Assembly (NCBI GenBank): GCA_935421135.1
Contig: OW285188.1
Coordinates: 3,648,733-3,712,732, forward strand
Source: Bugulina stolonifera
Lineage: Eukaryota; Bryozoa; Gymnolaemata; Cheilostomatida; Bugulidae
DNA: 64,000 bases
Direction: 5' to 3'
The notes under the pieces were generated by a model, which saw only the letters and a list, made by a program, of their open reading frames with translations, searched no databases and was not told the DNA's origin. Position numbers and translations under genes: made by a program. The number at the start of each line of letters is the position of its first letter. The first letter of the stretch is position 1. Positions 3,161 through 33,600 of the stretch are shown here, piece after piece.

Positions 3161-6100
3161 ATGGGTGTATCAGAGCTGGAGTCAAACTGCAATGCACTGA
3201 GTAACTTGTTTCAAGGCCTCATCAATGATATGAGGGTGAGAGAGTTATTATTCATCCAAAGCCTTCTTTATCTTGTTTGCCTTTGTGCTTATAACATTAA
3301 TGGGCAGGTAGTTAGCAGGTAGTTGGCAGGTACTCTGCCAGCTACATTTATATGTATATATAGCAATTTAGGCAGTCTTTCACCTACAAGTTGTGCAGTG
3401 GCCACACTATTTTACCATGTGATTATTGGTAAATAATTATGCAGCATTCATCAGTGGACTCCACCTATTTCGGCATACTTTACATGACTTGTGTGTACCA
3501 GTATACTACTGGGTGTAGGGAAATTAGCTCATTGAATAGTAATGTTATCATACATATGGATGTATATATAGGCCTATAGGCCTAAACATATTGTATGATG
3601 AGACAGATATATAATATCTCTGTACACCCACATACCACACTTTTACTTGGAGTATATTATGATACTCCATAATTACATGTTTTACCCCCAATTGAGATGG
3701 AAATGATTCTGTGGAATGAGTTGAATAAGTTCATCCAAGCTAGATTGGAGGCAATACACTCTGTATGCCTTCGTTACCTACCATTAGCATATACATGTAT
3801 CTATGCGGCTAGAGACCCTGTATTACAGTATGTACACTGTATGTTTCTGTTAACAGGACAGTGTCCCTGCGTTTGAGGAATTGGCTAACAGAACCACCAA
3901 ACTCCACTCCACACTAAGGTGAGCCTGCTCCACACTACCTGCACTGTAATAAATAATTATCCTATACTTGAATTAGTATACAGTTAGATTCTGTAACCAA
4001 TAAGCAAGTTGGCAACCAAGATCTATTATTATTCATATAATGGGAAACTTGGGAACTTGCATTATTATAGTATACATCTACATTGTATAATAATAACCGA
4101 TACCTTTTCACTTATTTACTTATCCAATGTTTACTTAAACATGTATTTTTGTTGTATTTCATTCTGTGGCTGATACTCTGTTGTAGAGCTTCGATTGTAG
4201 CAATAGCTGGTTTTTTGGAGGCATTTCAGAAAGTTGCAGACGCCGCAACTGGTTCTAAAGGTAAGTCAAATATCTCATCCTCCCTTTGTTCTTGTGATCA
4301 CACTAGTCTGGGAGAGATTGGTGTGAACCAAGTCTGTACTTACTCTGATTAGGCATAGTAACAGCAGACCTACATGGTAACATGGTAACAGTACATGTAG
4401 GTGTGTTATTTGTTTGGCAGATGTAGGTTACCATAGTAACACTATTGTGTACCCTAACAATGGGTGTTTCATACACAACACAGTATCTCCAATTTTATTG
4501 GTTAGATACCACAAACTGGCAGCTGACTGCTTGGGAACCTCAAATAAGCATAATAGCAGATCAGTTTGGGTTTTTCTACATTCATAATTTTCCCCAGCAC
4601 CAATGATTGCTAGATCTGGAATGCAGCAGACTGTGGGATAGTTTGGTACACTCCACAGGGCTCTGTCAAATCATGAGGCTGAATTGCCATATACATAGCA
4701 GCTAGTCTGGACTCTCTGAACTACTAGGTTAAGTGGTTATGATAATATTATGTCAATGTAGTGCTATGCTAAATAGCTGTAAGCTAAGCTACCCTCCACT
4801 TAGGAGCTGATAAGTGGATGAACTGATAATGGCCTGCTGAAGAAATTGAACATCTGTAATTTATTTACTGGCATGTTATGATAGTAATTTATCGACACGA
4901 ATTGCTATCAGCATTGCACACTAGCTCCTCAGTAGAGAGTATGGACTGCCCTGGGTGCCTCTGAGCTGAGCACACACAATGTCAGCATATATTATATTAT
5001 ATGCTGGCAATCATTACTCCACAACAAGCTTCGGCTTGCACTTAAATTTAGAAAATCAATATGGCTGTTGTGATTAGGTGGTCATGTGAAAGATATGCTA
5101 CATTCAATTATGGCTTTGTTTTAATATTAATTGAAATGGGTAAATGAAGTTTCTATCTCAAACGAGTTGACAGTTAGCAGCTAGTGCTAGCTAGTGTTGC
5201 TGCTGGCTGACTAGGGCCTAACATCAGCTGCTTCAATGAAATGCAAGCAGAAATTAAAAGTTATAAAATAACAATCATTTGCAGTAAAACCTGTACATAG
5301 TAACAGTTTAATTACTAGTATAGTACTAGTAGCTAGCAGTAGCAGTTACAATGATACTAAATTATTATGGATCTCATATTTCATGTGCAGCCTGCTGCTC
5401 ATTCTCCCCTTACAAGATAACTCATAATTAGATTGGACTCTTGACAGCTAATTGGCTGGTAGAGCAGGTAGACAGGCAGCAGACAGTTGAGATTTTACCT
5501 GCACTGAATGTACAATGTGCATAGCTTGTATAATAGGATATCAAATGCTACTTACTACTACAGATTATATGCTAGTAAGAGTAAAGTAATAACCCATACA
5601 CTACAACAGTACCTTCATATGCTGTCGGACAAAGTTGAGATAGCTGCTGTAGGTCCATAGTAGGGAGATGCCAACACATAGTTTGAGTGCATTTGTCCCA
5701 AATCCCAACCCCCAGATTTCAACTAATTTTTATTTTTGATATTATATTTTTTAATTAATTAAAATTAATTTACTGTGAGTTGTGTTCTTCTAAATTTAAT
5801 CTACACAGTTTCAAACTGTCTCTTACGAAGTGTAGCAGTTGGATTCATTGCTCCAAGCCCCATGTCTGGTTAGAACCAATGCCAATGCGTACAGTACTAG
5901 CCTACTATCAGAGACTTGGCTACCAGCTCCACAGCCTGTCCTATAACTGGACAGACTTATTATTGATCAACCAAATAATTACAATCCATGTTATTAGGGT
6001 AAGCCTGACCTTAGGCTGTTGTGCTATTTTATGAAATTACCACAGGATAATGTATTCAATTGGTCTGGATACTAGCTGCAATACAGGCTTATATTCAAAT

Positions 6101-9100
6101 ATCCCATTACTTGTGGTAAGTAACTCTTTTTATCTACAAAATGATTTCATGAAATTTGTCAATAAAGAAGAAAGAAATATTTTAGATTTGTATGACTATC
6201 TATTCATGAATAAACTGAATAGACAGAAGCAAGTCGCTGATTTGATCAACTGATAGCATCTCCTACTGCCTGCCAAGACCTATAGGAGGCCAGGCCCACA
6301 CTTTACTTACTATAAACTAACCTGTATGCTGTGTAAATACTGTATTATGTACATTAGCTGAAGCCCAGTAATGAATCTGCCATTGAACTCCATAAAACTA
6401 ATAGATTACCAACCTGGGTGGGAGAAAAACAGTCTAGACTGGAAACCGTCTCCCCTATTTAATTGGGGGTTGTATGCTTGGGTTGGATAGTAGTGGCTTT
6501 GGTATTACATGTAAATACCAAAATTTTTGTACATCTGTGGAAAGTGTTAGGCACTGCTAAGAAGTCTGCTTTTGCACTGGAATTTAATATCGACAAGTTT
6601 CAAAAACTTAGTTGCATGACACAAAATAGATTTCAATAAAAGATATGACCATCGCCATCTTTATTCCACAATTTGCCTGGAAACTCCTAAAACATTGCAA
6701 TTTCTCTCCACTCAGCCCCAACCCTCCTGTGATGTATAGGTTATCCCCCATTGCTCTACTCTCTACTCAGCCCCAACCCTCCTGTGATGTATAGGTTATC
6801 CCCCATTGCTCTTCACTGGTCTGTATTGGGGCACCTGGTCCCATACTGACTAATTATTGTATGTGTGTATTAGTATATTAGGTAGGCCTACATGTATATT
6901 ATCTACCTGTGTATAACAATACAGGAAGTGTACATTAATCTATCCTCACTTGAAACTAATCCTAGTTAATCACTACCATAAGTATGATTTGTCTTGGCAG
7001 GTGCTACTAAAGAGATTGGGAAATCTTTAACCAGGCTCTGTTTGCGTCACAGAAGTATAGAGAGTAAGATGAAGCTATATGCTAAGTGAGTTAACTTCTT
7101 GTCATCTCTTCAACCTGCATTGTACTGTATGTGTACATGTATATTAACCATAGGGTGGAGGGGGTCACTTCTTGCACTGAACCCCACTCTTTGTGTAGTG
7201 ACAACCTGGTTCTGAGTCTACATTTTATCAAACAGACTGCAGTAATAGCTTGCTAGTAGCTAGTCCTTGGTGTCGTTGTAAAGTGTTGGGTAAATTAGAA
7301 ACTGACCAACAAACAACCTGTGACTATCTTCCACTGCACTGTTGTGCATGACTGTGATGTACATGTATATGTGTATTATTTGCTTCCTATCTCGCTATTC
7401 CTTATCAGCTAGACATTTTATCACTTGGTCAACATTGTATGCATACGTCACTCTGCACCCACAAGTAAACACTAAATGGAGTGCTGCCTCTACTCCACTG
7501 TATATTATAACCAATAGGTCTATAGGCTATTTAGTTATACTCTGCTCTGCATCATATATAGGTTTCCCATTACACAGTGAGCTGGTACTTGCTGCCTCTT
7601 ATTTACTCTGTAAGGCAGCTTCAGCACATAATGAGAGAGGTATCGCCATTGATTTGGTGTTTGCTTTGTATTTATACTTGTAGTATACTTAGTAATAATT
7701 AATAACTGTGTAGGGGTACATGTATATAGTACATGTTCCAATTTATATATACATACATACATGTACATGCGCTCACTTATCTAAGGTTATAATATAGTAC
7801 ATGTACTTAGTCTCAAGTGTTGGTACTAAGGCTAGAGGGAAATGAAATCTTTCTGCAAGTCTGTGTCCAACCAACAATGTACTCGATCCCATTGAATCTG
7901 TAACAGCTAAGGGAGATTACTCCCGACAAATACTATACAGTACTGTTGGTAAATAGTCCACATTAGTAACAATGGTAGGTATCCAATAGGTACTGTGTAC
8001 ACATGATATTGTACTGTTGACTGGGATGGGCTAGTAATTATTGGATTTATCAATTTACTGTCTCTCTGTGGTATAAGCCATTCACATGTACACCTGGTCA
8101 CCCTGTGCTTTGAGTGCTTCTATTCTATGTACCTAATTCATACTTAGTCAATGCACCTACATGTACACTACATGGTAATACATGGTACACAGAGGCATAT
8201 ACTCATACATAATACAATGCATTACATACATTATTAGTAATACATTTTAGTTGTACCTGTACATGTAGACCTTCAACCTAGTATGCACTTTACCATAATT
8301 GATTCAATAGAAAACAGGAATTCTTCTCTATAAACCAGTTTATATAGTAGGTGTAAGACAATAAACATCCCCATTTGCATAGCAGTTATGGGCCCTCTTA
8401 ATTGATAACATGACTCACAAATTAATGGCTGGGCCCCAAAAGGACTGTATATCAAGTTAATTGGTAATGGTAGGATGTAGGCATTAGCTTACAGCAGTAA
8501 CTATATTACCCCCTCGGTTGGCTTCACCTCTGTTTACTGTATTGTTTATGGGCTTGCAGTTGGTTACTTATAACTAACTGATATAGGGTAGGGCAGGGCA
8601 GGGCTTCTATAACATTCTCTAAGGTCACACATTGATATTCATTTGGGTGACTGAGTCCGGATACATGGTGATAAATAACAACTCTAGCTCTATAGAAGCT
8701 GTCTATATGTCAACATGTGTTTACTAAGTCGAATGCTTCCCTGTCTAGTAATCACACTAGCTGTGGTGTGTGACAACTGATACCCCTTCCTATTCACAGT
8801 ATTGAACTTGATACATACAATATACACTATACACCATCTGTTATTCTTGTAACTGATATAACTATAGCTAATATGAAGTATGTGTACTGTCCAGTTGTTT
8901 ACTGCTGCCGCTGCCTGCCTGCAGTAGATCAATATCTGCTAGTAGAACAATGGGTGCTTTGTGGTATACCTCACTGGCAGCATGTCAATCATTATAGTTA
9001 TTGACTATAGCATCTGACCCCTACTCCTGCACCTACTCACTGGCTCTGCACACTGCAATACTAGTGCTAGCAATAGAAAGTGTCTCATAATTGGACGATG

Positions 9101-12100
9101 ATAGTAAGGTAGATATGCCTACCTACTACATAGTACATTCAAGTAGGAACGATCTCTATATACATGTAAATGGACCAATGACCAGCATTGATAGCAGTCA
9201 AGGGTTGGGGAGATAACTCTCCAAAACGAAACTGCTCTACTGAATTAGCTTTCCTTCACAATTATAATACAGTCATGTAAATAGGTTACTGGGTGAACAC
9301 AGGGAGCCTTTCACTGAATTAATATAACAAGAGATTGTATTATAGTATATTGTCAAATATTTATCTAGTGTTGTGTGAGGTGCAGACAGAAAGGGTGGAT
9401 GTAATGTTTTGATAGAATACACTTGAATTAGAGCATTGTATTCAATGTTAGTCATAACTAGTACTACTAACTAACTAATCATAATACATTGTATGTGTGT
9501 AAATGTTACATTATATTAACTACATTCTTGTAAATATCCATTATCTATTGTAGACATCAAGTATACTATTTGCTATATCATTGTACCTTTATCCTCTTCA
9601 GAAGACAGTAAATATTATGTATGCTTAGCTAGTTACTAGACCATAATATCTTTACTAAACAAGAGCTACTAGTATATCATGCAATTTTGCTGATCATAAA
9701 CATAAGACTTGAGCAGAAACACAAGTTTGATTTCTTGGCTGGATTACATAGCATGTAGCTGGCTGTCAGTGTGACATATTATTATCTATCATCATGCTCC
9801 TTTCTATAAATATTCTATATTCATTTTTGTAAGTCTCTATAGCTTATCTAGTTGAGATCATTATGGAAAGTATAAAGTGTATCACATGCCACTGGCTCTG
9901 ATAAACCTCTGACTGAGTAATCTTTGCCTTGGATCAATAAAACCCTAGCATTTCTTTAGACTGTCTGATCAAAGAGAACACGACTGCTTGTTTTATCACT
10001 TTCAGTGGTTTAGACTCTGTATACTTGATTATTTTCCCTGGTTTGTGGGAGCAGTATATATGCTATTCTTTCTTGCTTGTATGTAGTCACATATGACAAG
10101 GAATAGTGTTGATTTTCCTTGAAGTTTGAAGTCAGAGGGCAGCTTAAATACGGGATGTGAATCTAACTGTTGGGTGCAATAGTAGCCTAGTGTAGTTATA
10201 CTTCCAGTTGGCTTGGATCAGCACAGCGAAGACAACTCCTCGTACTGAATTTGTTGCATTGCACGAGTTCTGCACTGGTACATGTGTACATGGAAACTAC
10301 CAGCTCCTGACTTTCCTGTACATTAGGCTTTCCCTGCTTCCTACTAACAGATGGTATTGTGCTTGTCATGTTTTGCAATGTATATGGATAATTTATGGTA
10401 AATTAGATGAGCATTGTGGTGTGGTATTGTAGTTCCTTGATGGAAGAGTTGGCAGTACCACTGCAGGAGAAACTAGAGGACTGGAAGAAGAATACAGTTC
10501 AGATAGATAAAGATCATGCCAAAGGTCTGTATAGCCCATATAGCTAATAGGTATTATATAAACATGCTAGGTGCTATGTAGGTGGTTGTCAGTGAGCCCA
10601 GGTCTGTAGATTAAAACAGGAATTCTCTTAGATAATGGGATTACCTCCCCATTCTACCCTAGTATTACAGTCATAGTATGGGTATTATATACACATATAC
10701 ACATTATATACACATGTAGGTAATAGGCACTTGTCAAGCACCTAGTCTAACAAATGCAGTTTGCAGGTCACTGTGTAAAATAGGCCTATAATATTGTACA
10801 AAGTGCTGCTTTGTGTAAAGTAAACTACATGTATTATATGTAACCAGGTCAGGTAGAGGTGTGTGTTCATTTCATTGTTACTCAAGTAATAGAATATATT
10901 TACTGAACTATAATATAAATGCATCTGAATAAAGTGATAGTAACTTGGGCAGACATAATTTCAATAGTTTACAATAATATCATGGACAATGGTTTGGCTA
11001 TCGTATACCTTTATGTTTGGCCCAGTATGCAATGTACTAGTAATATAATATAATTTTTAATACTGTGTGTGCTTTGGTCTAACAGTTCGGATATTTCTAT
11101 CATAGCTCTATGGTGATATGATACTGTACCACAAGACATACATGTAGATGATTTAGATGTCCTATGTAATGTAGACAGTGAGCTGTGTATATATTATAGT
11201 ATAACATCTTTAGTAGAGTTATCAGTAGCTACTGTATGTGGTAACTACCAGCTACATGTACAAGTGACTTTAGCACAGAGATAGTAGGTTGAGAGGTGAT
11301 TATCTATATGTCCTCAAATGTGACAAGGGTCTTTATCTTTGGGGTCAACAATCCCTCTATCAGAGTCATTAGTGTAGGTAGGGTGAGCTCTGGCACAGGG
11401 TGAACAGCCACAGGTAAGCATATCCTTGTCCTTATGCAGTAGGGCTACACTCCCACCACACACACTCTGATATGGGTAAATACAGGGCAGGGAACAGAGC
11501 AATGCAATAATAATACACTATGATAGATTGCTGGTCGGTTTTTTTGGGCTTACTTCTTATCCCTAGTATATATATTCAATTAACATTGTCTTCATAGAAA
11601 TAACAGTTCAATTGGTATAAATACAGCCTGCTAGGCAGAGCTAGGATCCGAAGAGATGAGTATTTTATAAGAGGTAAAGGAGTGGTCACCTGCTGTTCCC
11701 AGCATGGCAAATGACTATGTGGTGCAGGAGGTACTTGAATGCCCTTCCTAACACCACCAATGACCTTTACAAAATAGAACAGGATCTTCTACATGGAAGT
11801 CCAGAGCTCTAACCCCACTAAACCACAGCTGCTCCTTCTATATTGTATATATACATTGTACCATGTAGGCATATATTATGTGTTACAGATAGTAATATAT
11901 ATGATTGTATATTGTATGTACACTGTACCATGTATATGTGTTACAGGTAGTAATATATATGATTGTATGTACACTGTACCATGTATATGTGTTACAGACA
12001 GTAATATATATGATTGTATGTACACTGTACCATGTATATGTGTTACAGATAGTAATATATATGATTGTATGTACACTGTACCATGTATATGTGTTACAGA

Positions 12101-15100
12101 TAGTAATATATATGATTGTATGTACACTGTACCATGTATATGTGTTACAGATAGTAATATATATGATTGTATGTACACTGTACCATGTATATGTGTTACA
12201 GATAGTAATATATATGATTGTATGTACACTGTACCATGTATATGTGTTACAGATAATAAGAAGGTGAAGGGAGACATTAAAAGAGCATCCTCAGACACCA
12301 TCAGACTTCAGAAGAAAACTCGTAAAGGTAAAACCACATACTGTAAGTTGCTGCTCCGCTACTATTAACCCTTTGCTCTACCTTGGTAAGGTAACTTGGT
12401 GCTAGTGATCACAGCACAGCAGTGAGTATAAGTCAGTAAGTATACAGCTGCCTCTCCTCTGCTAACTAAGCCATGGTGACCTAGTAACCCGCTGGTCATT
12501 GCTTCCTCTAAACAGACTGGGAGTTATGGGGTTGGACAGGGCAGTAGTCAAGTGGGCAATGACAGGGAAAGGAATTTACAATCACCCAATCTTCCTTCTA
12601 GTCTAACACTGCTAGATACTCTATAACCATCCTGGTATGATGAGGGGACTCTACAGAGACAGTGTATATGTCCTCCCATCACTACATAGTTCTGTCAATG
12701 ATTTACATGTACTTCCCATTGACTGGGTAATATTCCAGAGTAAATAGTGTCTGGACTCCTAGAAGTTCAGCCTGGGATAATGCATTAGGTTATTCTTTTG
12801 GTATAGATTTACATATTATTATATCATAACATAATAATAATAATTATAATCTAACACAATCTCTGGCTATAGATATAGTGCTGATAATCCGTGCGGGTGG
12901 GGTAGTGGTTGGAGAGGATGGGGGTGATTTGTAGGGACTAGAGCTAATACTCCAGATGACTCTAACAGCTTGTTGTGGTCACTGCTTCCATTTACCTCTA
13001 TAATATTACTATATACTTACCTTGTATACATGTATGTATCTGTGTAGTACAGCCAGTATCTCTACCTGTCTACCTTCTGCTCATGTATATACATGTACAT
13101 GTATATACACATGTACATGTATATACACATGTACATGTATATACACATGTTATGTCACTCCGCTACTCCTTGTCAACACTTGTCCTTCCTGGTGCTGCTT
13201 CTCCCGGTATCCTCCACTTGTACGTACGTACCCCAGCCGCTAGTACATGCACCGATGTTATACTGTTGTACAGTACACTTTGTCTATGCTATAGTATGTA
13301 CTTATTATACTTCCTGTTGGCAGGTAAAGGTGACGCGAGAGAGAAACTCGAGTCAGCCATGATGGGAGTTACGGAGAAGTACTCAGTTCTCGAAGAAGTA
13401 GAGAAATCTTATGTTCGTAAAGCTCTGATAGAAGAGAGGAAACACTATTGTGACTTTATATGCTGCCTACGTCCAGTTGTGGTAAGTCTGTCTGTATGTC
13501 TGTTTGGCAGACTGGCGGGCAGGTGGAGGACTCTCATTTTTACGCAATACATTGCTGCCTTGTCTACAGCCACCCTGTGTATTTTATATGTCGTGTTATT
13601 TAATAAGGACAACTGTTATGGAATAACTGTAGTATCACATTACAGTGTCTCTTTACTCACTAATTACTTACGGATACTTATACAGTAAATTAACTCAAAG
13701 GTTATTTCACATTGAATTTTTGGCATTAGTTAGTCCTGGGTGACTTCACCTGAAAGCGGAGAGACTCTGTCAGTTTTGATTCATAGCACACACATTTAAC
13801 ACTACACATCTGTCACATGTTAGTGTAGACACATTTCCTTCTATGGCTACACAAGTTATGTCAAAGTTGTGCAACTCCTAAAAATCCGGAAACCCTGTGA
13901 ATCACTCAGGTAAAAAGGTTAACTCACTGACATACATGCTGGACTTGATTATATGAGTTTCTAACTGGAAACGTTTGGCCCACACAACAAAGAAGATGCA
14001 TTGTACGCTTTACAAGTAAAACATGTATACAATATACACAACATGTACAACATGTACAATTTGTGCAATGTAGATATCATCTTATTCAATTCTAAATATG
14101 GTTCACCTTTGTATGTTGTACCCTTATTACACCTTTTTACACTGATGTACACGTAGGCCTACTAACAGTAGATTACATGTACAGTACACACATATTACAC
14201 ATATTACATGTACAGTGCACACGTACTACACATGTGACACGTTTTATGACCAACCCTCTCTCTCTGTTGCAGGACTCTGAGATGGCCATGGTCAATGAGA
14301 TTGCCCACCTCCAAGAGATAGTTGACCATCTGTCTGCTCTGGCCGCTGACCCGGACACACTCCCAGAGTCCAGTGAGCAGGTCATCACTGACCTCAAGGG
14401 TACAGCCTGTACATATAGACCCAAGGTAAGGCTATTGTAGTGGTGATACACTAGGGGGTAGTTACCAACCATGCCTGTGGTGCACGTAGTTCTATATACA
14501 GGGGGGATTACTCTAGTAAACATACTACACCAAGCAAACAGTCCCAATGCAATACTGATGCATAGCCTGTAGCGGAACTGTGTGACTGCTTATAGAAATA
14601 TATAATTATTACTTATTTCAATTACAGTCAAAAATATTAAGAGAAAGTTGATATTGATTTACTGATTAGAGCAGGAGTTAGTTTACTCCTACATGTAGTT
14701 TAGCTTTAGTCTAGATATACACAGTACAGTATACAATCAATAGCTTAGCTGCTCTGTATAGTAATGTATCAACTGGTAATGTATATGTATAATCATATAA
14801 TAATAATATTAAATGCAATGTGCATACAGTATTATATACATGTATTATATTATACTCCCTTCCATTGGGGTTTAACTTTTCTTACTACAATTATTTAATT
14901 CAATCTCTACATCGTAATTGTTTGTACATACTATGTGCTGGCTATATCTAATATACTGTTTAGCAACTAGTGTACTATACTGTACTCGCACACTGCTTAT
15001 ATACCTACATGTACATTTCTCTAACTAATGCCATACCACACGCTCTCAGTGACTCAGTGAATAGTATATATGTAAATTCCTTCTCTACTGCCACCCTGGC

Positions 15101-18100: not shown

Positions 18101-21100
18101 ACCCAAGAGCTGGCTGCTAAGATAGCTGCCCGTAGAAAGGAAGAGGAGGGAGCAAATGTTAAGGCAGCAGACAAAACTGCAATGACGTCTAAACCTCCAA
18201 CCACAAAGGATGAAGAGATCAGAGTGAGTATAGTATCATAAATATACTACGTGTATGATATGTATGCGAGTATGTGTGTAATATACTGTATTTGTATACA
18301 CACTGGGCTAGTGAGATACCATCAGCCTACGGGCAAGGTAGGAAATCCAATATACACATGTAGTTAGCCGACACGAGTGTTTCCTGTTGGTGGGGGCGTG
18401 GCGTGTTATACTGTAGATACATGGAATAGCTCATACACTATTCCCTCTATTAGCACCAGCTTTGAAAAGGGTAACACTTGCTAGGACATACATTGTGTTA
18501 CTGGAAGTAGATTACATGCTTTACTGTAGGCATCACTGTACATGTATAAATACTAGTACTAGTACTAGTACTACATATATATTGTTATTGTGCATCAGTG
18601 TTATTTCTATGTATCTGTGCTTTGTATGTATTTATAGAACCATTGGCCTGCTAACAAAGTTTACAAACAATTTGAAAGTGAATCGGTTTATTTAATTTTT
18701 AAAAATATTTTTACGAGGTCGTCAGGGTGGTGTTACTGTAAACAGCTCTGGTAGCGGAGTACCCATATATACATAGTGCGGGCTCCATGTAGAGGCCCCA
18801 AACCATTCGTCTCTACTGATTCTAGATTCGCACTCAAATATTTTATTAATTTGATGGATAAGTGACAGTATAACATGGACACTGATGGACTGCAGGGTCA
18901 CTCTAAGGTTTGCTCTAATAGCACATGCACTGAGTGGCTGACTGCTCTCTATGCCCTCTCTACATTGATAGCAGTCGGGCCATAGTTACCCCCCCCCCCT
19001 TCTTCTATCCATAAACATGGTCCTAGTTTGACTACTGTATTCGAGTGGGTAAAACCACAGTTGAAGGGCTACTGGAGTTATCTTCTACTACAATGACCAT
19101 GTTTGTGGGCGGAGCTATAGAAAAAGTCATTTTACTTTTCCCTATTAGGCTTACTACTTTATTGCACATTCCATCAGTGTACACAGTGTACTGAGTGTAC
19201 CTAGGTAACACTCATTGTGCATTATATACTAGTTCGAGTAGACGACTCCTAAACAAATCTTAACTCTCTATATTATACATTGTACTGAAGATGTTATATA
19301 CTAATAAGATAATATGGTGTATAGGTGTTGTGTCGTTGTGGTGTAGTATAGTTATTATAATAGCGATTAGGCTCTACTGGTAGATAGTGTTGACCTAGCC
19401 GTATAGGGAACAGTGATGTATACAGACGTTCACAGTTTGGTGCTCCGTTGGTGGTGTGGCACTAAGTAGGGTCTGTTGTGCTAACCACTACTACACATGT
19501 ATCTAACCTATTCACTTGTCATAGCTTATGCCTCCGTAGCTTATTGGTCAACTAATTACAGGAGCCGAGGTGTAGGCGTTATTCAACGGGTAGCAATATT
19601 GCTGCCGCTGTCAAGGAAATGGAGGCGTCAACCTTGGCCCTTCAGAGCCTTACTGACAACGATATCTTGATTAGAAAGGCAAGAGTGGTGGCTGTTGTCA
19701 TGTGCTCCTGTTTATATAGATTGTTTTAGTTAGTTGGCTGACACAGACGGCAGCGTCTATTGTTAGATAGCTTTAGTTACTTATATAGATTACATTAGAA
19801 ATCCTCCCCAGTCTCTGCCGATTTATTTAAATACGCTGCACGTAGAAAGATGATTGCTCTAAGCCAACAATCACAGTATGCTAGAGTAGTATACACTCCA
19901 TTTCTGTATAGTACAGCTGTGAATGGTTTAGACTGCTAGCTCAATCACTTGTACCTGTTATTCGTGTATTCAGTTAATACACAAGTCATTGCACTGTCAT
20001 TGCATGTGCCATGTTACCATATGCACACTTATGTTTTGTTATATTTGTCCCATGCATAAGGGAGTCAGTAAAGCCTACTAAATGGTAGAGTTGTCTTCTC
20101 CCACTCTGTCTATATCCAGAATGACAGTTATTATTATGTTAAATGATTGGGTGTATTATCATTTATAATAACCTGCCTGCCTGCTATCCCTAGGCACAGA
20201 ATGATGCACTGGCAGATGCTATTAAAGAGTTAGAGGCAAGCACAGCCGCACTGAATGACTGTCTGGATGAACCTAATAACAGGCAGTCGGTAGTTAGCTC
20301 TAGCGGTTACGGTACAACTACTAGCAACTCCTCGGCTTCAGAGGAGGTGCAGCTCATCACACATGGTAAGGCTGGCCAATGACTTCTAACACCAATGTTT
20401 AGTGTATACATTATAATCTCTTTGATGAGGTCTATATGTATCAGGTCTTATTCCATGCACACCAACTGCAGCTTAGTATCATTGCTACTTAATAGAGCCT
20501 CCATTATAATACACACACACTCTCCCCCTATCTACTCACCACTAACAGAAGGACTCACGTGTAGTTATGTGTTCATCTCTGCTACCCCTGTGCATATTGT
20601 AGCAAGTGTATTAATATGACCTCTAACCCCTTCGCTTTTCATTAGCACATTTTCAGTATATTAGCACAGTATCAGCGTATAAGCACATACTCCATTTATA
20701 TTAGCACAGCATTGATCTCTTAGGCTATCTATTCTCATAATATTTCATTTGCATGCTGCTTTGCTTTATGTTTAACTTCGCTCAACGGCTGTAATATGTT
20801 GATACTCTACTTTGTACCGCACTGCAGCGTAACCAAAGTCTATTGTATGGTTATTGATAGTGGTGCGAGTGAGGCCTGTGCCCCTTCCACGGCCCAGGCT
20901 CAGCTCCTTCTCGTCCTCGTAGGTAAGGAAGCACCTCAGTGATTGATAAAGTAGTACGGCCTACGCTCACACTACTGTCAGGCTTTGTGGCTGTTATCAA
21001 ACTATCGTACCTGTCTTGTGTAGGAACCGGGTTGGTTACCACTAGCTTCCTGTTAGCCAGCTATACGTGTTGTGGACAGAGTGGGCCTTGTGTAGCGATT

Positions 21101-23082
21101 AGACTGATACCACCACTACTGTAGTTATCTGCCCTTAGTTTCTCAATGTTGGACATTGATTTGCTATTCAGTCTTGACATGATGTTGTGACAGAAGCCTA
21201 CTAGACAGTCGTGGCCTACAGAAATGTAGTACTCTGTTATTTCATTCACTAATTCTGGTTGTTGTAGCTGTTCTAGCCTTGTGTTGTAGTTTTTATTTTG
21301 AGGATATGCGATTCTACTAAGCTTAGTAGTACATAAATTATAGTTTAATGGGATATACCTATCATTTACTCCGTGACTAGTCTTGTCTCCTTGCAATGGT
21401 TACAGTATTGCTGATGAATTCCATGCTTTCTTTTACAGAAACAGTAGATCATCATACAGCCAACTCTAATTCATCTAATCGTACATCAGAAAAAAATTCA
21501 GAACATGACAGATCTCAGCCATTACACGAGCAAACACAACGGACCACACCGCACATATCTCAACAGCAACCACACAGTTATGACAGACATGCCAATGAAC
21601 TGGAGAGGGAAGCAACTGGTATGTACTGGTAGAACTTTAAATTTCTGTATGAAATTTTTCTCATTATGCGATATTGTAATGCTAAACTTACTGGAGGCAA
21701 AATTCTCTCATGGTCTTGCATTGCAGGTGTAGAAGTTACCAACTGGGCTGGCAAGGCAGTGATGAGGCGACACGCAGGTCAGGCAAAGCCACCGCCTCCT
21801 GTAAGACGGTCTTCCTCCGTAACATCCAGTATCAATGGTCCAGCAGACCGACCCCAAAGCCAAAGGTCATCTAAACCTCCTGTACTCAGTCCTAAACCGA
21901 AGATGTCCTCCGTCGTGGAAGGGAGAAATAGTAGCCGTACCAGCACTTCCAGTGTAACCAGTGAATCATTTCCTTCCCCTCCCCCACCTATTCCAGTACA
22001 TCAGGATGACGAAGGTGAGGCTAGCTCTGTCCGGGCTACTCAGATAACAGGAATTGCAACTAGCATAATATGTAGTTTGTTCTCAAATATTTACTCTCCC
22101 TATATAAACCAACATGGAATTGTGAATGTGGTTTTCTTCTGGGTTCTGGAAGGACCCTTCCCTCTCTTCATTATGCTGACCAAGGTTGTCTGCCCTTGCT
22201 AACACCACCAATTACGCGTGGCCTCTTAGCTCTAAGCACAGACAGACAATGTAGGTATAGCCTGTGTACTATTATACTCTTATCCTGTTTGTTTCAGATC
22301 CGTATGCTGTGCCAATGCTATGTCACCCAATAGATATGTCGGGGTTGCCTCCCCCACCTGAGGAGTTTGGCCTTGACATGAGTATGAACATGGACAGTCG
22401 AGTTTCATTCAATATAAACGATCTTCCGCCACCTCTACCAGACTCTCCGGCACCCGCATATCTCACCAGTCAGGTCTTATGTCCACCGCACCCTGTCGCC
22501 AGTGCACACCACCCAGTAGCCAGTGCACACCACCCTGTAGCCAGTGCACACCACCCTGTAACCAGTGCACACCACCCTGTAACCAGTGCACACCACCCAG
22601 TAGCCAGTGCACACCACCCTGTAGCCAGTGCACACCACCCAGTAGCCAGTGCACACCAACAGACTACACTAACTCACTGCCCACCTCCAGCCCAACACTC
22701 TACAGCAGATCAACAAGTGCAGAATGTCACCTTGACCCAATCTAACAATACAAATAACTCGGCTCCTTGGCAACATGCAGCAGCCAAGTCTCCAAGATCC
22801 AACTCTAAAGGGTCAGTACCACCGCCCACCTTAGCCAAAAAAGCAGGTAAACTGAACACTAACTTTCTAGCTCAGTTAAATTCAACTTTGGGTGGACCAG
22901 CTGACAAAGGGGCACCTCCACCACCCTCCGGTAACCGCCCCTCTGCTGCAGCAATTGATAGTTTGAGGAGCAATAGGGCTAAAGACTCGCCTCCCAGAGA
23001 CAATCTCTTATCACAGATACACGGTGGTGTGAAACTCAAGAAGGCTACCAATGTCAATGACAGATCCGCCCCTTCCTTGTGA
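3161..23082 (+). CDS. MTSS1: MTSS1 / MIM-ABBA family I-BAR and WH2 actin-membrane regulator
   Basis: Nineteen coding exons join in phase to 1072 codons: 3161-3235, 3857-3918, 4187-4260, 7001-7085, 10433-10524, 12253-12327, 13324-13481, 14273-14425, 15267-15398, 15636-15764, 17002-17272, 17636-17827, 17968-18003, 18081-18223, 19562-19678, 20194-20365, 21439-21618, 21727-22014, 22298-23082. Residues 1-258 are an IMD/I-BAR domain with family landmarks FLEAFQKVADAA, LTRLCLRHRSIESKMK, QIDKDHAK, SSDTIRLQKKTRKG, RKALIEER and SEQVITDLKG. Then come TPPDSPTS and SQDSGFTSQDA (Ser-rich, as in vertebrate MTSS1), a long Ser/Pro-rich linker with PPPP stretches, a seven-residue repeat (about 875-930), and a C-terminal WH2 (LLSQIHGGVKLKK, then NDRSAP). 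By family, the IMD binds and bends PIP2 membranes and the WH2 binds G-actin. The ATG has A at -3 and G at +4. A 5'UTR exon probably starts at 3003. Oddities: a probable GC donor after exon 15 and decoy acceptors before exon 6. Confidence 0.92.
4261..7000 (+). other. MTSS1 intron 3
   Basis: This intron lies between exons 3 and 4. It is AT-rich, with a 55-bp tandem duplication at 6711-6815 and short ORFs that look like chance. No protein-coding exon with family similarity was recognised. Confidence 0.6.
6711..6815. repeat. 55-bp direct tandem duplication
   Basis: The unit beginning CTCAGCCCCAACCCTCCTGT occurs at 6711 and again at 6766, almost identical over about 50 bases. It is a recent local duplication within MTSS1 intron 3. 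Confidence 0.9.
7086..10432 (+). other. MTSS1 intron 4, the longest intron of the gene
   Basis: About 3.3 kb of AT-rich sequence without recognised exons. Short ORFs here have no family resemblance. Numerous TACATGTA-type palindromes are scattered through it. Transcription factor sites could be present, but none is distinctive. Confidence 0.55.
11640..11835 (-). mobile_element. tRNA-derived SINE, copy 2
   Basis: On the minus strand this reads TAGTGGGGTTAGAGCTCTGG (A box), a degraded B-box region, and TCATTGGTGGTGTTAGGAAG followed by GGCATTCAAG. That is the same order as at 1-150. It lies in MTSS1 intron 5, just upstream of the minisatellite that borders exon 6. Divergence from copy 1 suggests an old insertion. 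Confidence 0.7.
11881..12252 (+). repeat. 51-bp minisatellite ending exactly at the MTSS1 exon 6 acceptor
   Basis: Units of 51 bp are nearly identical and each contains GTGTTACAG followed by ATAGTAATATATATG. Acceptor-like AG sites leave the next base at 11889, 11947, 11998, 12049, 12100, 12151, 12202 and finally 12253, the real exon 6 start. The first interval is 58 bp and the rest are exactly 51. The real acceptor is therefore the last repeat's own acceptor. Reading from any of the sites from 11947 on is open and in phase with exon 6. Confidence 0.95.
12328..13323 (+). other. MTSS1 intron 6
   Basis: About 1 kb. It contains a small three-unit 18-bp minisatellite at 13087-13150 made of ACATGTATATAC-type sequence. 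No exon recognised. Confidence 0.6.
13087..13150. repeat. 18-bp minisatellite, about 3.5 units
   Basis: The unit ACATGTACATGTATATAC repeats about three and a half times in MTSS1 intron 6. It is self-complementary in part (ACATGT, TGTACA), so it can form hairpins. Confidence 0.9.
16432..16545. repeat. 18-bp minisatellite, about 6 units, in MTSS1 intron 10
   Basis: The unit is CAGTATGTATATTACCTG with a CAGTGTG variant. The last unit has two extra bases. Each unit contains TTACCTGCAG, which resembles a 3' splice site, but the array is over 450 bp from exon 11, so use as an acceptor is unlikely. Confidence 0.9.
19562..19678 (+). other. MTSS1: MTSS1 exon 15 with probable GC-AG donor
   Basis: Exon 15 opens after ATTACAG and encodes EPRCRRYSTGSNIAA and on to DILIRK. 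The next exon (20194) is phase 0. At the 3' end the best donor is AAG|GCAAGA, a GC donor that fits the consensus around it. The only nearby phase-0 GT (AGA|GTGGTG, two codons later) has a poor consensus. I chose the GC donor; using the GT one would add two residues. Confidence 0.6.
20861..20922 (+). other. Possible alternative exon in MTSS1 intron 16
   Basis: 62 nt are flanked by GATAG and by a strong donor, TAG|GTAAGG. Continuing from exon 16, the reading gives VRPVPLPRPRLSSFSSS and then a stop at the last codon. The length does not keep frame with exon 17. If used it would make a truncated MTSS1 lacking the WH2. The locally Pro/Arg/Ser-rich, GC-richer sequence resembles the gene's linker exons. 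Only transcripts can decide. Confidence 0.3.
22136..22222 (-). mobile_element. SINE fragment, copy 3
   Basis: The minus strand reads ATTGGTGGTGTTAGCAAGG then CAACCTTGG, matching the tail part of the SINE at 1-150. The tRNA-like head is absent. It is in the short MTSS1 intron 18 (22015-22297). Confidence 0.55.
22298..23082 (+). other. MTSS1: MTSS1 last coding exon, with in-frame minisatellite and WH2
   Basis: It opens after GTTTCAG and encodes 260 residues and the TGA at 23080. At 22488-22653 a 21-bp unit repeats about eight times and encodes HPVASAH with V(A/T) variation. After it come PPPP-rich stretches and the WH2 motif LLSQIHGGVKLKK, then NDRSAP near the end. The NDRSAP tail after WH2 is also found in vertebrate MTSS1 and WIP-family proteins as I recall them. 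Confidence 0.85.
22488..22653 (+). repeat. 21-bp coding minisatellite (HPVASAH)n
   Basis: About eight copies of a unit like CACCCTGTAGCCAGTGCACAC lie inside the coding sequence and keep frame. Variants (GTAGCC, GTAACC, GTCGCC) change only one or two residues. In the other frames the array is also open, which is a trivial consequence of the period being divisible by three. Confidence 0.93.
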
Positions 23083-27600: not shown

Positions 27601-30600
27601 TATATCAATTTTATGTTTGTATATATAATGGAGGTCTACGCCATACTACATTATACGTACATACTACATTATACGTACATACTACATTATACGTACATAC
27701 TACATTATACATACATACTACTGTACATTATACATACATACTACATTATACGTACATACTACATTATACGTACATACTACATTATACGTACATACTACAT
27801 TATACGTACATACTACATTATACGTACATACTATATTATACGTACATACTACATTATACGTACATACTATATTATACGTACATACTACATTATACGTACA
27901 TACTACATTATACGTACATACTACATTATACATACATACTACCTTATACGTACATACTACATTATACGTACATACTACATTATACGTACATACTACATTA
28001 TACGTACATACTACATTATACGTACATACTACATTATACGTACATACTACATTATACGTACATACTACATTATACGTACATACTATATTATACGTACATA
28101 CTACATTATACGTACATACTACATTATACGTACATACTACATTATACGTACATACTACCTTATACGTACATACTACATTATACGTACATACTACATTATA
28201 CGTACATACTACATTATACGTACATACTACATTATACGTACATACTACATTATACGTACATACTACATTATACGTACATACTACATTATACGTACATACT
28301 ACATTATACGTACATACTACATTATACGTACATACTACATTATACGTACATACTACATTATACATATAATATATTATGTACATGTACAACTACAAATGTA
28401 CATCCTCTAATACTAGATGCACCAACCTCGATGTTGAACCTGTACATCGTGAATGTTTTTATACCGCTGGTTATTCTGTAGGACCCAACCCTTCATGTTT
28501 CCCATAACCCCTGTAAAGAGAAAGAACAGCACACACACATTCAATATATCCCAACATATACACTGTAGGACTGCAGGACTATAACACATGTATAACAATC
28601 ACTACATTCACCGGTTTTACTCTGATCAACAACTGAGAAATTTGAAACACTTTCACACGCTGATACTTCTAACTGAAAAAAGCGTCCAACTTTTTTCAAG
28701 TTCTGCAACCACAGATTTTTTTAAATGGGAATTTTGCGACCAAATTTAGACAAAAGACCAGCATCTACAGACATTGTGCGCAGAGTGTATATTTATTTCA
28801 TCCATGTAACTATCTAGATAAGGAGCTAATAGGATATAAACATGGAAGAAGACAGATTATTAAAATATCTCACTTTTGAACTCAGCCTCCAGCTCCCTGG
28901 CTACCGACTCACACCTACTGCTGTGATCTACAACACAGACAATGTAGGGGCACACTCAGTACATAATAACTACATACAAACTGATAGTATGCACCACATG
29001 TACATCTATAATACTACAAGTATGTTGACCAAGGTTGGAGTATGATACCACTGCCCTCACATATCATACAATACTGGACACTGCTAATAAATTATAAGAA
29101 TCTTGTTATATCTGACGAGAATTTGACACAAGAAAATATATGGGATTATTCAGATTACCAACTCAGTTATGCTCTATGTATTGTAGTTTGTAGGATTTAA
29201 CCTTTGGAATACATGTATATAGACATAGGCATACATAAATGTATCTATTACATCTATACATACATGAATCAGTATACTTGCTGTAAATATACAGTGTTGC
29301 CAAAGTGTGCTCCTAGGTATATCTCTGAGCTGTACTGATGTGGTGCCAAACACCGAAACAGCACACTGTATGCGGATTGAGTAATACAATGTATATGTAT
29401 ATACAGATATACTGTACATATTACTGTATAACCAAATACTATATATACAGCAGAGTATCCACCCACCTTCAAGTGTCTGTTTCATCATATTAAACTGACT
29501 GGCCAATCCACCTGTTAAATACAGTCATGTTATACTATTATACTATTATACCACACAGTCATGTTATACTATTATACTCTTATACCACACAGTCATGTTA
29601 TACTATTATACTCTTATACCACACAGTCATGTTATACTATTATACTCTTATACCACACAGTCATGTTATACTATTATACCACACAGCCATGTTATACTAT
29701 TATACTCTTATACCACACAGTCATGTTATACTATTATACTATTATACCACACAGTCATGTTATACTATTATACTCTTATACCACCCAGTCATGGTATACT
29801 ATTATACTCTTATACCACACAGTCATGTTATACTATTATACTCTTATACCACACAGTCATGTTATACTATTATACTCTTATACCACACAGCCATGTTATA
29901 CTATTATACTCTTATACCACACAGCCATGTTATACTATTATACTCTTATACCACACAGTCATGTTATACTATTATACTCTTATACCACACAGTCATGTTA
30001 TACTATTATACTCTTATACCACACAGTCATGTTATACTATTATACTATTATACCACACAGTCATGTTATACTATTATACTCTTATACCACACAGCCATGT
30101 TATACTATTATACTCTTATACCACACAGTCATGTTATACTATTATACTCTTATACCACACAGTCATGTTATACTATTATACTCTTATACCACACAGTCAT
30201 GTTATACTATTATACTCTTATACCACACAGTCATGTTATACTATTATACTCTTATACCACACAGTCATGTTATACTATTATACTCTTATACCACACAGTC
30301 ATGTTATACTATTATACTATTATACCACACAGCCATGTTATACTATTATACTCTTATACCACACAGTCATGTTATACTATTATACTCTTATACCACACAG
30401 TCATGTTATACTATTATACTCTTATACCACACAGTCATGTTATACTATTATACTCTTATACCACACAGTCATGTTATACTATTATACTATTATACCACAC
30501 AGCCATGTTATACTATTATACTCTTATACCACACAGTCATGTTATACTATTATACTCTTATACCACACAGTCATGTTATACTATTATACTCTTATACCAC

Positions 30601-33600
30601 ACAGTCATGTTATACTATTATACTATTATACCACACAGCCATGTTATACTATTATACTCTTATACCACACAGTCATGTTATACTATTATACTCTTATACC
30701 ACACAGTCATGTTATACTATTATACTCTTATACCACACAGTCATGTTATACTATTATACTCTTATACCACACAGTCATGTTATACTATTATACTATTATA
30801 CCACACAGCCATGTTATACTATTATACTCTTATACCACACAGTCATGTTATACTATTATACTCTTATACCACACAGTCATGTTATACTATTATACTCTTA
30901 TACTAGTCCCTCTGTGTAATAATACTGACCTGTATAAGGTATTATTGTGAGGAAAATCCGTAGAATTATAAAATTAATCAAATTAAGTATTTTAACGGAT
31001 TGTATAGACAATACAACCAATAGGGAGACATGACTAGAAACTAATTAAACATTGATCATTTCAGAATTTATTCATCAATTAAACCATTGCAAACATCGGT
31101 AACTGAAAAAGGTACAAGCTTTGCAAGTATGTACATGTGTAACTATAAGTATAAGTATGTACTGTACATGTACATGTATAAGTGTAAGTATAAGTATGTA
31201 CTGTACATGTACATGTATAACTATAAGTATAAGTATGTACTGTACATGTACATGTATAACTATAAGTATAAGTATGTACTGTACATGTATAAGTGTAAGT
31301 AAGTACATGTATTAATAAGTGTAAGTATGTACATGTATTAATAAGTGTAAGTATGTACGTGTATAAGTGTAAGTATGTATGTGTATAAGTGTAAGTATGT
31401 ACGTGTATAAGTGTAAGTATGTATGTGTATAAGTGTAAGTATGTACGTGTATAAGTGTAAGTATGTACATGTATAAGTGTAAGTATGTACGTGTATTAAT
31501 AAGTGTAAGTATGTATGTGTATAAGTGTAAGTATGTATGTGTATTAATAAGTGTAAGTATGTATGTGTATAAGTGTAAGTATGTATGTGTATAAGTGTAA
31601 GTACATGTATGTATGTGTATATCTTACATTGTATGTTCTGAATCTTTTGCTCAGTCACATGGCTGTCTCTCTGTCTTGTTTCATCAAACAAACCTGTTCA
31701 ACAAGATTTTAACAAATAATTCATATTATCATATTTACATTATGTATATGTTTGTGTACACTGTACAAGCAATCCAAACTTCATAGATTTATTAGCACTA
31801 ACGATAGTATACTATAAATGTACACTGTTATATATAATGTATATGTACAATGTACATACATTGAATCTGATATTTGATACCATCAATCTGCCTCTGTAAG
31901 TCGGCTATCCCAGAGTTCCTCTTCGTAGCACATTCTGTGTAAAACATAAACTGTTTATACATACACACCAGCAAGCACCTAGTACTACTTGTACTTGTTT
32001 GTCAGCATGTTGGGTCAACTTTACCTAATCATGTACATCATGGTACTGCTAACCAATTTACATGAGAATTACCGGTTACATGACATTAACCGGTCACATG
32101 ACACAAACCGGTCACATGGCACTAACCAGTCACATCATTTTAAATGCATATACCTCCGTGACCGGAATAAGCCTATCTTGTAGCAGCGTAATTTAACTAA
32201 CTAGTTCAATCACACCACTACATTCAAAAGTGTAATAAATTTAGTACACTCTCAGTTCTGCACCATTTACCACCACCACAACCACTGTAGTCTAACAGGT
32301 CTTACTATGATAAGTGCACATACCTTTCCCAAAGTCCTTCAACATATTCTCTACTTTGGTCAAAAGATCAGCTAAAAAATTAAACAAATGTGCATCAAAA
32401 TCGATATTTAGAATGATATGGTGTACCATGTACCATGTTCTTTTGTCCATTGTACATGTACACCTACACACAATGCGAGCTGACACTATGTACATACATG
32501 TACATGCACTACACAGGAGCACAATATCCTGCATACAATATACATATACACTGTACTGTATAATATATATGTAACTAACACTCACCTTCAAGCTCTGCCT
32601 CCCCTCGATGTAACATTTCGTAGTCTACAACAAGTACATGTAGCGTGCAATAGAACAGGGGAAGCTTCTACCAGTATAGTCTATACAAACACATGCACTC
32701 TGTCCAATATACACACACATACGAGCTGCAGAGCCAGACAGCACTACTACTGCATCACTGCAATCAAACCTTGAATGGTGTCTAGTCTAGGGACAGGAGG
32801 AGATAAACTGACATACCAGATCGTAGCTTCTCATTCTCATCCATCAAGAAAAGATTCTTGGCTGAAATAGAGGATGCAGTGAATGTAGGGTATAGTCACC
32901 GACTGACTACGTATATGCTAATCAACAAACAGTAAATAGCCTACTTGGTTTTATCACAAGTATGTACAAGTATGTGTATGGCAGGTATGCACATGTATGT
33001 TGTATGGCAGGTATGTAATGTACAATATGATATGTATGGCGCACCTTGTGAATCTTTTAGCTCTTTCTCCAGCGTAGCAATCCTTTCTAAAAAATACAGC
33101 AAAGTTCACTCAAGCCTTCCTAACATCAAATATTTAATCACATAATGCTGCTCTTCAAGTTTGATATCATCTCCTGGTGACAGCGGTGTGGTCCTATTTC
33201 CTATACCACTAATGACTCATCCATGACTCTTTCAAGACAATACATTTTCATGCAAATGTGTCCCCAGCTGGGAGTTGCTAGCTCCTGTTTAACCAGTTGA
33301 GATTCTCCCCATTGACCCCAGCCGTGAGACATCAACATTCACTAAATATGTAATAAAAACCTTGGTATATGTTATAATGTAGCAAATACTTTGCAAAACT
33401 TCAGAAAATGAGAGTTGTCTTCTCTTCATTTTGTAAGTTGTCAGCTCTTACCCCAAACTTAACCTCAATATATAGAGACGTTTCTTATCACGTATATAGT
33501 AGATGTTAATTACTGCAGCAGCACCTTACTGACGGCTTATAGCTATGAGTAGCCTAGGATAGGTCAATGGTCTATCATTAGTACACAGAGCTGATGGGAG

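Follow-up and report, generated by a model that had tools for sequence, protein, structure and literature searches.

A minisatellite that repeats the splice acceptor of an I-BAR exon in Bugulina stolonifera, and similar arrays at other exon edges

Can a minisatellite that multiplies a splice acceptor change the protein encoded by its gene? The question arises at exon 6 of the MTSS gene, which encodes an I-BAR protein, in the bryozoan Bugulina stolonifera. An array of 51-bp units stands directly before this exon and repeats its acceptor. The window analyzed is a stretch of 64 kb of chromosome 2 (OW285188.1), and the genome searched comprises 27 contigs (234,951,659 bases). Public records for this assembly include poly-A RNA-seq reads (ERR10123683; PMC10213821) and an alternate haplotype (GCA_935421085.1). 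The first-pass annotation of the window proposed a protein that depends on repeat length. We favor another reading, with a probability of about 0.75. The array would be a mirage-type minisatellite, one of a recurrent class, in which the copy joined to the exon is used and the others are near-neutral intron. A mirage, as named in amphioxus, is a tandem repeat across an exon-intron boundary (PMC3087553). The array probably leaves the normal protein unchanged.

The array itself is certainly real. Tandem Repeats Finder (TRF) places it at 11911-12259, with a period of 51, 6.8 copies and 98% matches. The sequence GTGTTACAG occurs eight times on the plus strand of the window, every time inside this array. 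The bases that follow the AG of these sites are 11889, 11947, 11998, 12049, 12100, 12151, 12202 and 12253. As first annotated, all copies (8/8) end in the sequence of the true acceptor, and the last of them is that acceptor, 12253. The repeat also directly adjoins exon 6. Its end in TRF lies 7 bp inside the exon, with one mismatch over these bases (ATAATAA versus ATAGTAA).

The copies are not equally similar. The 51 bases before 12253, 12202, 12151 and 12100 are identical, and a single base change sets apart each of those before 12049 and 11998. Site 11947 shares just the nearer 36 or so upstream bases, and 11889 is clearly different. The annotation described the upstream sequence as identical in all units; this holds for about the last 36 bases at seven of the eight sites, but not farther upstream nor at 11889. 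Likewise, the units at 12049, 12100, 12151 and 12202 are identical, and those at 11947 and 11998 are each one base off. The outer copies have diverged and the inner ones are homogenized, which is the usual pattern of array turnover. The exon-side end stays undiverged up to exon 6. Only two variant bases exist across the six units, so there is no power to test for coding selection on the unit. Reading the unit by eye, we found no branch point of the form YTNAY.

The annotated gene family is correct. The IMD family (PF08397) scores over its cut-off at this gene, the sole match reported in the genome. In the PDB, the open reading frame (ORF) holding exon 7 matches metastasis suppressor protein 1 (2d1l). 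When joined, the eight N-terminal coding exons encode an I-BAR domain of 258 residues. Against a human IMD, the joined exons show 54% identity over 246 residues without a gap. The closest protein among the matches listed is P0031 of Watersipora subatra (78% identity), and its alignment traces the gene to about position 23,079. The final exon of the gene matches the C-terminal end of P0031, a protein with a precomputed WH2 domain (PF02205). Finally, the protein alignment runs gapless across the junction of exons 5 and 6. It confirms the annotated acceptor at 12253 and its phase.

Do such arrays stand at other exons? Of the 32 junctions of MTSS (with approximate edges in some cases), the exon 6 acceptor is the only one straddled by an array. 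We surveyed Pfam-marked coding exon matches in the genome for tandem arrays across their edges. The sample held 133 matches with 266 edges: 30 of 38 RhoGEF, 25 of 25 AAA, 38 of 54 RhoGAP and 40 of 143 kinase matches. The RhoGEF and RhoGAP matches were mostly the higher-scoring ones. The kinase matches were chosen from the table before their DNA was viewed; they lay inside the domain, were mostly stop-free and had 150-base flanks only. A stop was present inside 24 of the 133 matches. An edge was straddled when a TRF array (period at least 15, at least 2 copies) reached from 6 bp to about one period into the match and at least one period beyond it.

Eleven of the 266 edges were straddled, versus 2.58 expected from 110,904 non-exonic positions at the same loci under the same rule. 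The ratio of observed to expected is 4.3 (bootstrap 95% 2.0-8.2 over 100 separate stretches), with the caveats that match edges only approximate exon edges, that the four families were sampled non-randomly, and that null regions may hold some exons. The null rate is similar in the rest of the window (0.011-0.012 per side). By eye, nine of the 133 matches have a boundary-spanning array that copies the splice site, seven a donor and two an acceptor (4/30 RhoGEF, 2/25 AAA, 1/38 RhoGAP and 2/40 kinase). The Poisson probability is 0.00008 for eleven straddled edges and 0.0014 for nine.

These nine arrays have about 6-32 bp of coding sequence within the unit. The Pfam match stops at the exon-proximal site or at most about 5 residues past it. 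L046 has the exon-proximal donor GTAAGA, and its inner copies read GTGACT, GTAACT, GTACAC and GGAACT. Such drift is expected if selection acts on the proximal donor alone.

Two loci, L088 and L092, passed the rule and were excluded by eye because their overlap with the exon is about 1 bp at most. They were left uncounted on the donor side together with L095, L096, L102, L113 and L124. On the acceptor side, L041, L097, L129 and the second L088 match were not counted. The arrays at the uncounted loci are intronic, overlap the exon by no more than about 1 bp, or have copies too degenerate (L102). L029, L084, the acceptor side of the second L095 match and a repeat within the match of L108 were likewise left out.

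Structurally, the Bugulina array is a mirage, and the class recurs in this genome. Amphioxus has mirages in Adh3 (unit of 10-72 bp) and in the globins BflGb6 and BflGb9 (about 150-160 bp), with homogenized inner units (PMC3087553). According to the same source, their signals could serve as cryptic sites, and mirages were proposed as a source of new introns. Like them, the Bugulina array spans the boundary (by 7 bp, the weakest of the shared features), repeats a splice signal and has homogenized inner units. Arrays in Bugulina also recur at other genes, on donors and acceptors, as expected of the class. Unlike the amphioxus cases, the host is a bryozoan and the 51-bp unit includes only 7 bp of exon. 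Copy number that differs between haplotypes or somatically is a further trait of the class, as is regular splicing left undisturbed. The Bugulina array is described here from its sequence. The boundary repeats of human segmental duplications vary between paralogs and have transcript evidence of altered splicing, whereas Bugulina has one IMD gene.

Two further systems work in a similar way. The minisatellite of human IFI6 (6-16/G1P3) reportedly provides multiple splice donor sites. It multiplies a splice site, as in Bugulina, but the site is a donor, and the gene and phylum are others. We do not assign the Bugulina array to the IFI6 type, a copied donor of the flanking exon, because its copied site is an acceptor; the two only work alike. 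In NAGNAG tandem acceptors, the competing sites differ little in their upstream signals. Their spacing is 3 nt, whereas the Bugulina sites lie 51 nt apart and come from a repeat array. For mirage minisatellites at exons, the open-licence literature yielded only PMC3087553 (amphioxus globins). Judged by titles, it yielded no boundary-spanning arrays in bryozoans. Neither "satellite" nor "intron" occurs in the text of the bryozoan genome paper PMC13326412.

How could the array have arisen? The starting point may have been a tandem duplication that took in the 3' end of intron 5 together with the opening bases of exon 6. Unequal exchange or replication slippage would then have amplified and homogenized the duplicated segment. 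Each copy contains the 3' splice signal, and 12253, joined to the intact exon, would be the copy used, with the rest acting as intron. We infer the sole or main use of 12253 because no other copy is followed by the true body of the exon, with a donor at a distance of 75-90 nt. The extra copies would be nearly neutral, which would allow similar arrays to appear repeatedly at the edges of exons in this genome.

An origin of the acceptor from a dispersed repeat was also considered and rejected. Other genome matches of a 204-bp array query are only 68-80% identical (two of the 104 matches are the array itself). At five of those loci, the TRF consensus units are about 24-50 bp long, one of them called as a 94-bp double as well, and none contains GTGTTACAG. 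The sampled loci resemble general AT-rich tandem repeats, so the acceptor does not seem to derive from a dispersed family.

Several points weigh against reading the array as a mirage with a single working copy. Splice usage is deduced from sequence. With a share of only 7 bp with exon 6, one base of it mismatched, the repeat could have arisen wholly within the intron or match the exon by chance. The survey excess drops from 11 to 9 on inspection, the null was not inspected likewise, and the L053 match holds a stop. Arrays are also denser near edges. They cover 8-9% of positions at 25-150 bp from match edges, 4-6% further out and 1.1% inside matches, so part of the excess may reflect general nearness to exons. 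The drift in L046 is an exception, and inner copies of L038, L051, L060 and L128 retain good donors. In human segmental duplications, minisatellite-size repeats at exon-intron boundaries yield alternative transcripts (PMC2812944).

The strength of the acceptors points the same way. We scored them with a weight matrix built from the 13 other MTSS acceptors, a weak one in which left-out acceptors score from -4.9 to 10.7. The score is 6.96 at 12253 and at the six upstream sites alike, and 3.65 at 11889. Nine of the 116 AGs in intron 5 reach 6.96: the true site, the six array sites and two unrelated ones. No upstream signal would then exclude the use of the six. The annotated claim that the sites are indistinguishable from upstream is nearly right. 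Signals downstream of the site (the exon body and the nearby donor) can distinguish them, however.

Part of this evidence suits a plain intronic minisatellite that ends by chance at the exon, with neither a boundary-spanning origin nor a class behind it. The short exon share and the higher array density near exons fit such an origin. Moreover, arrays cover 4.7% of the non-exonic survey positions, and the window has 29 TRF rows of period at least 15. However, a chance ending has to face the acceptor signal in every copy, the surplus of arrays at exon edges relative to non-exonic positions, and the nine further arrays with coding sequence in their units. We consider it improbable.

The use of the upstream acceptors, as first annotated, seems to us still less probable. 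Each unit would add 17 residues to the I-BAR domain, and the protein would vary with repeat number. The reading frame was described correctly. The six sites from 11947 to 12202 share the reading frame of exon 6 and are stop-free, and the in-frame units would add the peptide DSNIYDCMYTVPCICVT. The first site, 11889, is out of frame and runs into a stop. Two of the three unit frames are open. Among shuffled 51-mers ending in AG, 18% are open in the needed phase, and the 1/3 chance that a length is a multiple of 3 lowers this further. As a property of the array, in-frame openness is weak: uncommon, not striking. Nor is frame keeping a property of the class, and we rejected it as such. The unit is divisible by 3 in four of the nine survey arrays (36, 30, 42 and 24 bp) and not in five (50, 38, 34, 73 and 43 bp). 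The 18-nt microexon of the annotation does have its signals, with ATT/GTATGT (the slash marks the splice boundary) 18 nt after the acceptor in each unit. However, if spliced to the acceptor of the next unit, it would leave an intron of 33 nt, and the Asp codon that opens exon 6 would become Tyr.

The homologs offer a test at the protein level. We compared 150, of which 30 came from one search and 120 are those listed of 1458 matches from another; many are vertebrate and hence non-independent. The exon 5/6 junction is covered by the alignments of 146 of them, all free of inserted residues at this point. The remaining four are three short ORFs with exon 4 only and one protein without the exon 6 stretch (P0023, from a Caerostris spider). 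P0023 is an MTSS 2 in which exactly this stretch is missing (HAK is joined to PKGD), together with another piece, as might result from a skipped exon or an incomplete gene model. At the exon 6/7 junction, by contrast, 16 of 144 covered proteins have 1-25 extra residues. The contrast between the two junctions is clear. The exon-adjacent site would give the ancestral protein, since the 146 homologs show no junction insert. A search with the ORF that reads through the repeat gave no protein at E <=0.001, and the five-residue words of the insert are absent from all 150 homologs. These missing insert-bearing proteins weigh little, because databases may lack B. stolonifera transcripts.

The insert is rich in Cys, and it would interrupt a helical domain. 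A normal I-BAR domain with such a 17-residue insert at an invariant junction is unlikely. In favor of upstream use stand the six open in-frame sites that score as the true acceptor, and the IFI6 minisatellite, reportedly titled as a source of multiple donor sites. The human boundary repeats can also alter splicing (PMC2812944), and for this reason minor use of the upstream acceptors may be possible. Conversely, reverse-transcription PCR suggested that regular splicing is undisturbed by the amphioxus mirages (PMC3087553). With this precedent, the homologs without an insert and the frame lost in five of nine sister arrays, the repeat-length-dependent protein is unsupported.

An intermediate of intron gain or intron sliding, with a unit recruited as a new exon or a shifted boundary, is very unlikely: such a model was put forward for the amphioxus globin mirages (PMC3087553) and the units also hold a GTATGT donor 18 nt past the acceptor, yet no intron lost or gained was seen in the MTSS gene and the exon 6 start is conserved.

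A different feature of exon 6 is the better-supported candidate for alternative splicing, as judged from the alignments. The annotated exon map is right in the start of this exon, but its end at 12327 is only one of two plausible donors. The other, after 12342, would add KTTYC, comparable to KTTYS in Watersipora. The similarity points to conservation of an alternative 5' splice site at 12342/12343, within the I-BAR domain. The map is also corrected to 10433-10524 for exon 5 and 10525-12252 for intron 5. The coordinates are collected in the table.

Table. Features of the MTSS gene and its array in the window, and survey arrays that copy a splice site (slash, splice boundary)
Feature	Position	Strand	Remarks
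MTSS exon 1 (N-terminal coding)	3161-3235		Part of joined I-BAR coding exons
MTSS exon 2	3857-3918		Part of joined I-BAR coding exons
MTSS exon 3	4187-4260		Part of joined I-BAR coding exons
MTSS exon 4	7001-7085		Part of joined I-BAR coding exons
MTSS exon 5	10433-10524	+	Phase 1 end, AAAG/GTCTGT; tblastn versus Watersipora P0031, 91% over exon
MTSS intron 5	10525-12252	+	1728 nt; GT..AG ends, gapless protein alignment across it
Degenerate outermost copy with first GTGTTACAG	11838-11888	+	Its acceptor 11889 leads to a stop
58-bp copy with 7-bp extra (attgtat)	11889-11946	+	
Six 51-bp units, each with terminal GTGTTACAG	11947-12252	+	In-frame acceptors 11947, 11998, 12049, 12100, 12151, 12202
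Example of hypothetical 18-nt microexon	12202-12219	+	Acceptor ACAG/, donor /GTATGT; sequence only
Exon 6 bases common to unit (boundary-spanning part)	12253-12259	+	7 bp, 1 mismatch; TRF end
MTSS exon 6, short form (DNKKVKGDIKRASSDTIRLQKKTRKG)	12253-12327	+	Donor AAAG/GTAAAA; gapless joined-exon alignment to human IMD
Exon 6 3' extension (+KTTYC), candidate	12328-12342	+	Donor TACT/GTAAGT; aligns with Watersipora RKGKTTYSKGD
MTSS exon 7, I-BAR continuation	13324-13481	+	PF08397 over cut-off; 2d1l match
MTSS exon 8	14273-14425		Last of eight N-terminal coding exons
L038, donor			36 bp unit, AGA/GTAAGT
L046, donor			30 bp unit
L051, donor			50 bp unit, GAG/GTGAGT
L060, donor			42 bp unit, GATG/GTAAGT
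L068, donor			38 bp unit, about 20 bp exon
L118, donor			34 bp unit, two copies
L128, donor			24 bp unit, seven copies of kinase CDFG piece and donor
L085, acceptor			73 bp, 5.9 copies: TTGTAG/ or TTGCAG/ and 28 bp coding MLYEGIYRI or similar
L053, acceptor			43 bp unit; match with one stop, at acceptor TAG

Other features of the gene and the window were observed besides. The Watersipora ortholog P0031 is publicly named "serine-rich adhesin for platelets-like", despite its IMD and WH2 domains. The last MTSS exon contains a 21-bp coding repeat at 22489-22658 (HHPVASA, about 8 copies), which is gapped versus Watersipora. A segment at 19577-19642 coding IAAAVKEMEASTLALQSL resembles the start of a later exon at 20194-20367 (LADAIKELEASTAALNDC), possibly a duplicated or alternative exon. 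Downstream of MTSS there are long minisatellites at 27642-28363 (18 bp, 39.8 copies) and 29521-30903 (34 bp, 40.9 copies). Another, at 53896-54538, has an 18-bp unit in 35.7 copies with 100% identity. It is open as PDGKPV repeats, and two of the three forward frames are stop-free in the repeat.

The recurrent mirage class is more interesting than the isoform mechanism first proposed for the array. Mirages have so far been described for a few amphioxus genes. If several percent of bryozoan exons carry them, as 9 of 133 suggests, they would provide many natural experiments. With a row of identical splice sites ahead of a single exon, the choice of copy tests the roles of exon definition, site strength and distance. 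Annotators are warned that exon edges in such genomes can fall within repeats. A broader view is tentative, and we hold it as doubtful. Cheilostome splice junctions might be preferred birthplaces of minisatellites, with several percent of exons bearing arrays that multiply donors or acceptors as a reservoir of competing sites. In some genes, copy number might then vary between colonies and give in-frame isoforms or new introns. Mirages also offer raw material for intron sliding and intron gain.

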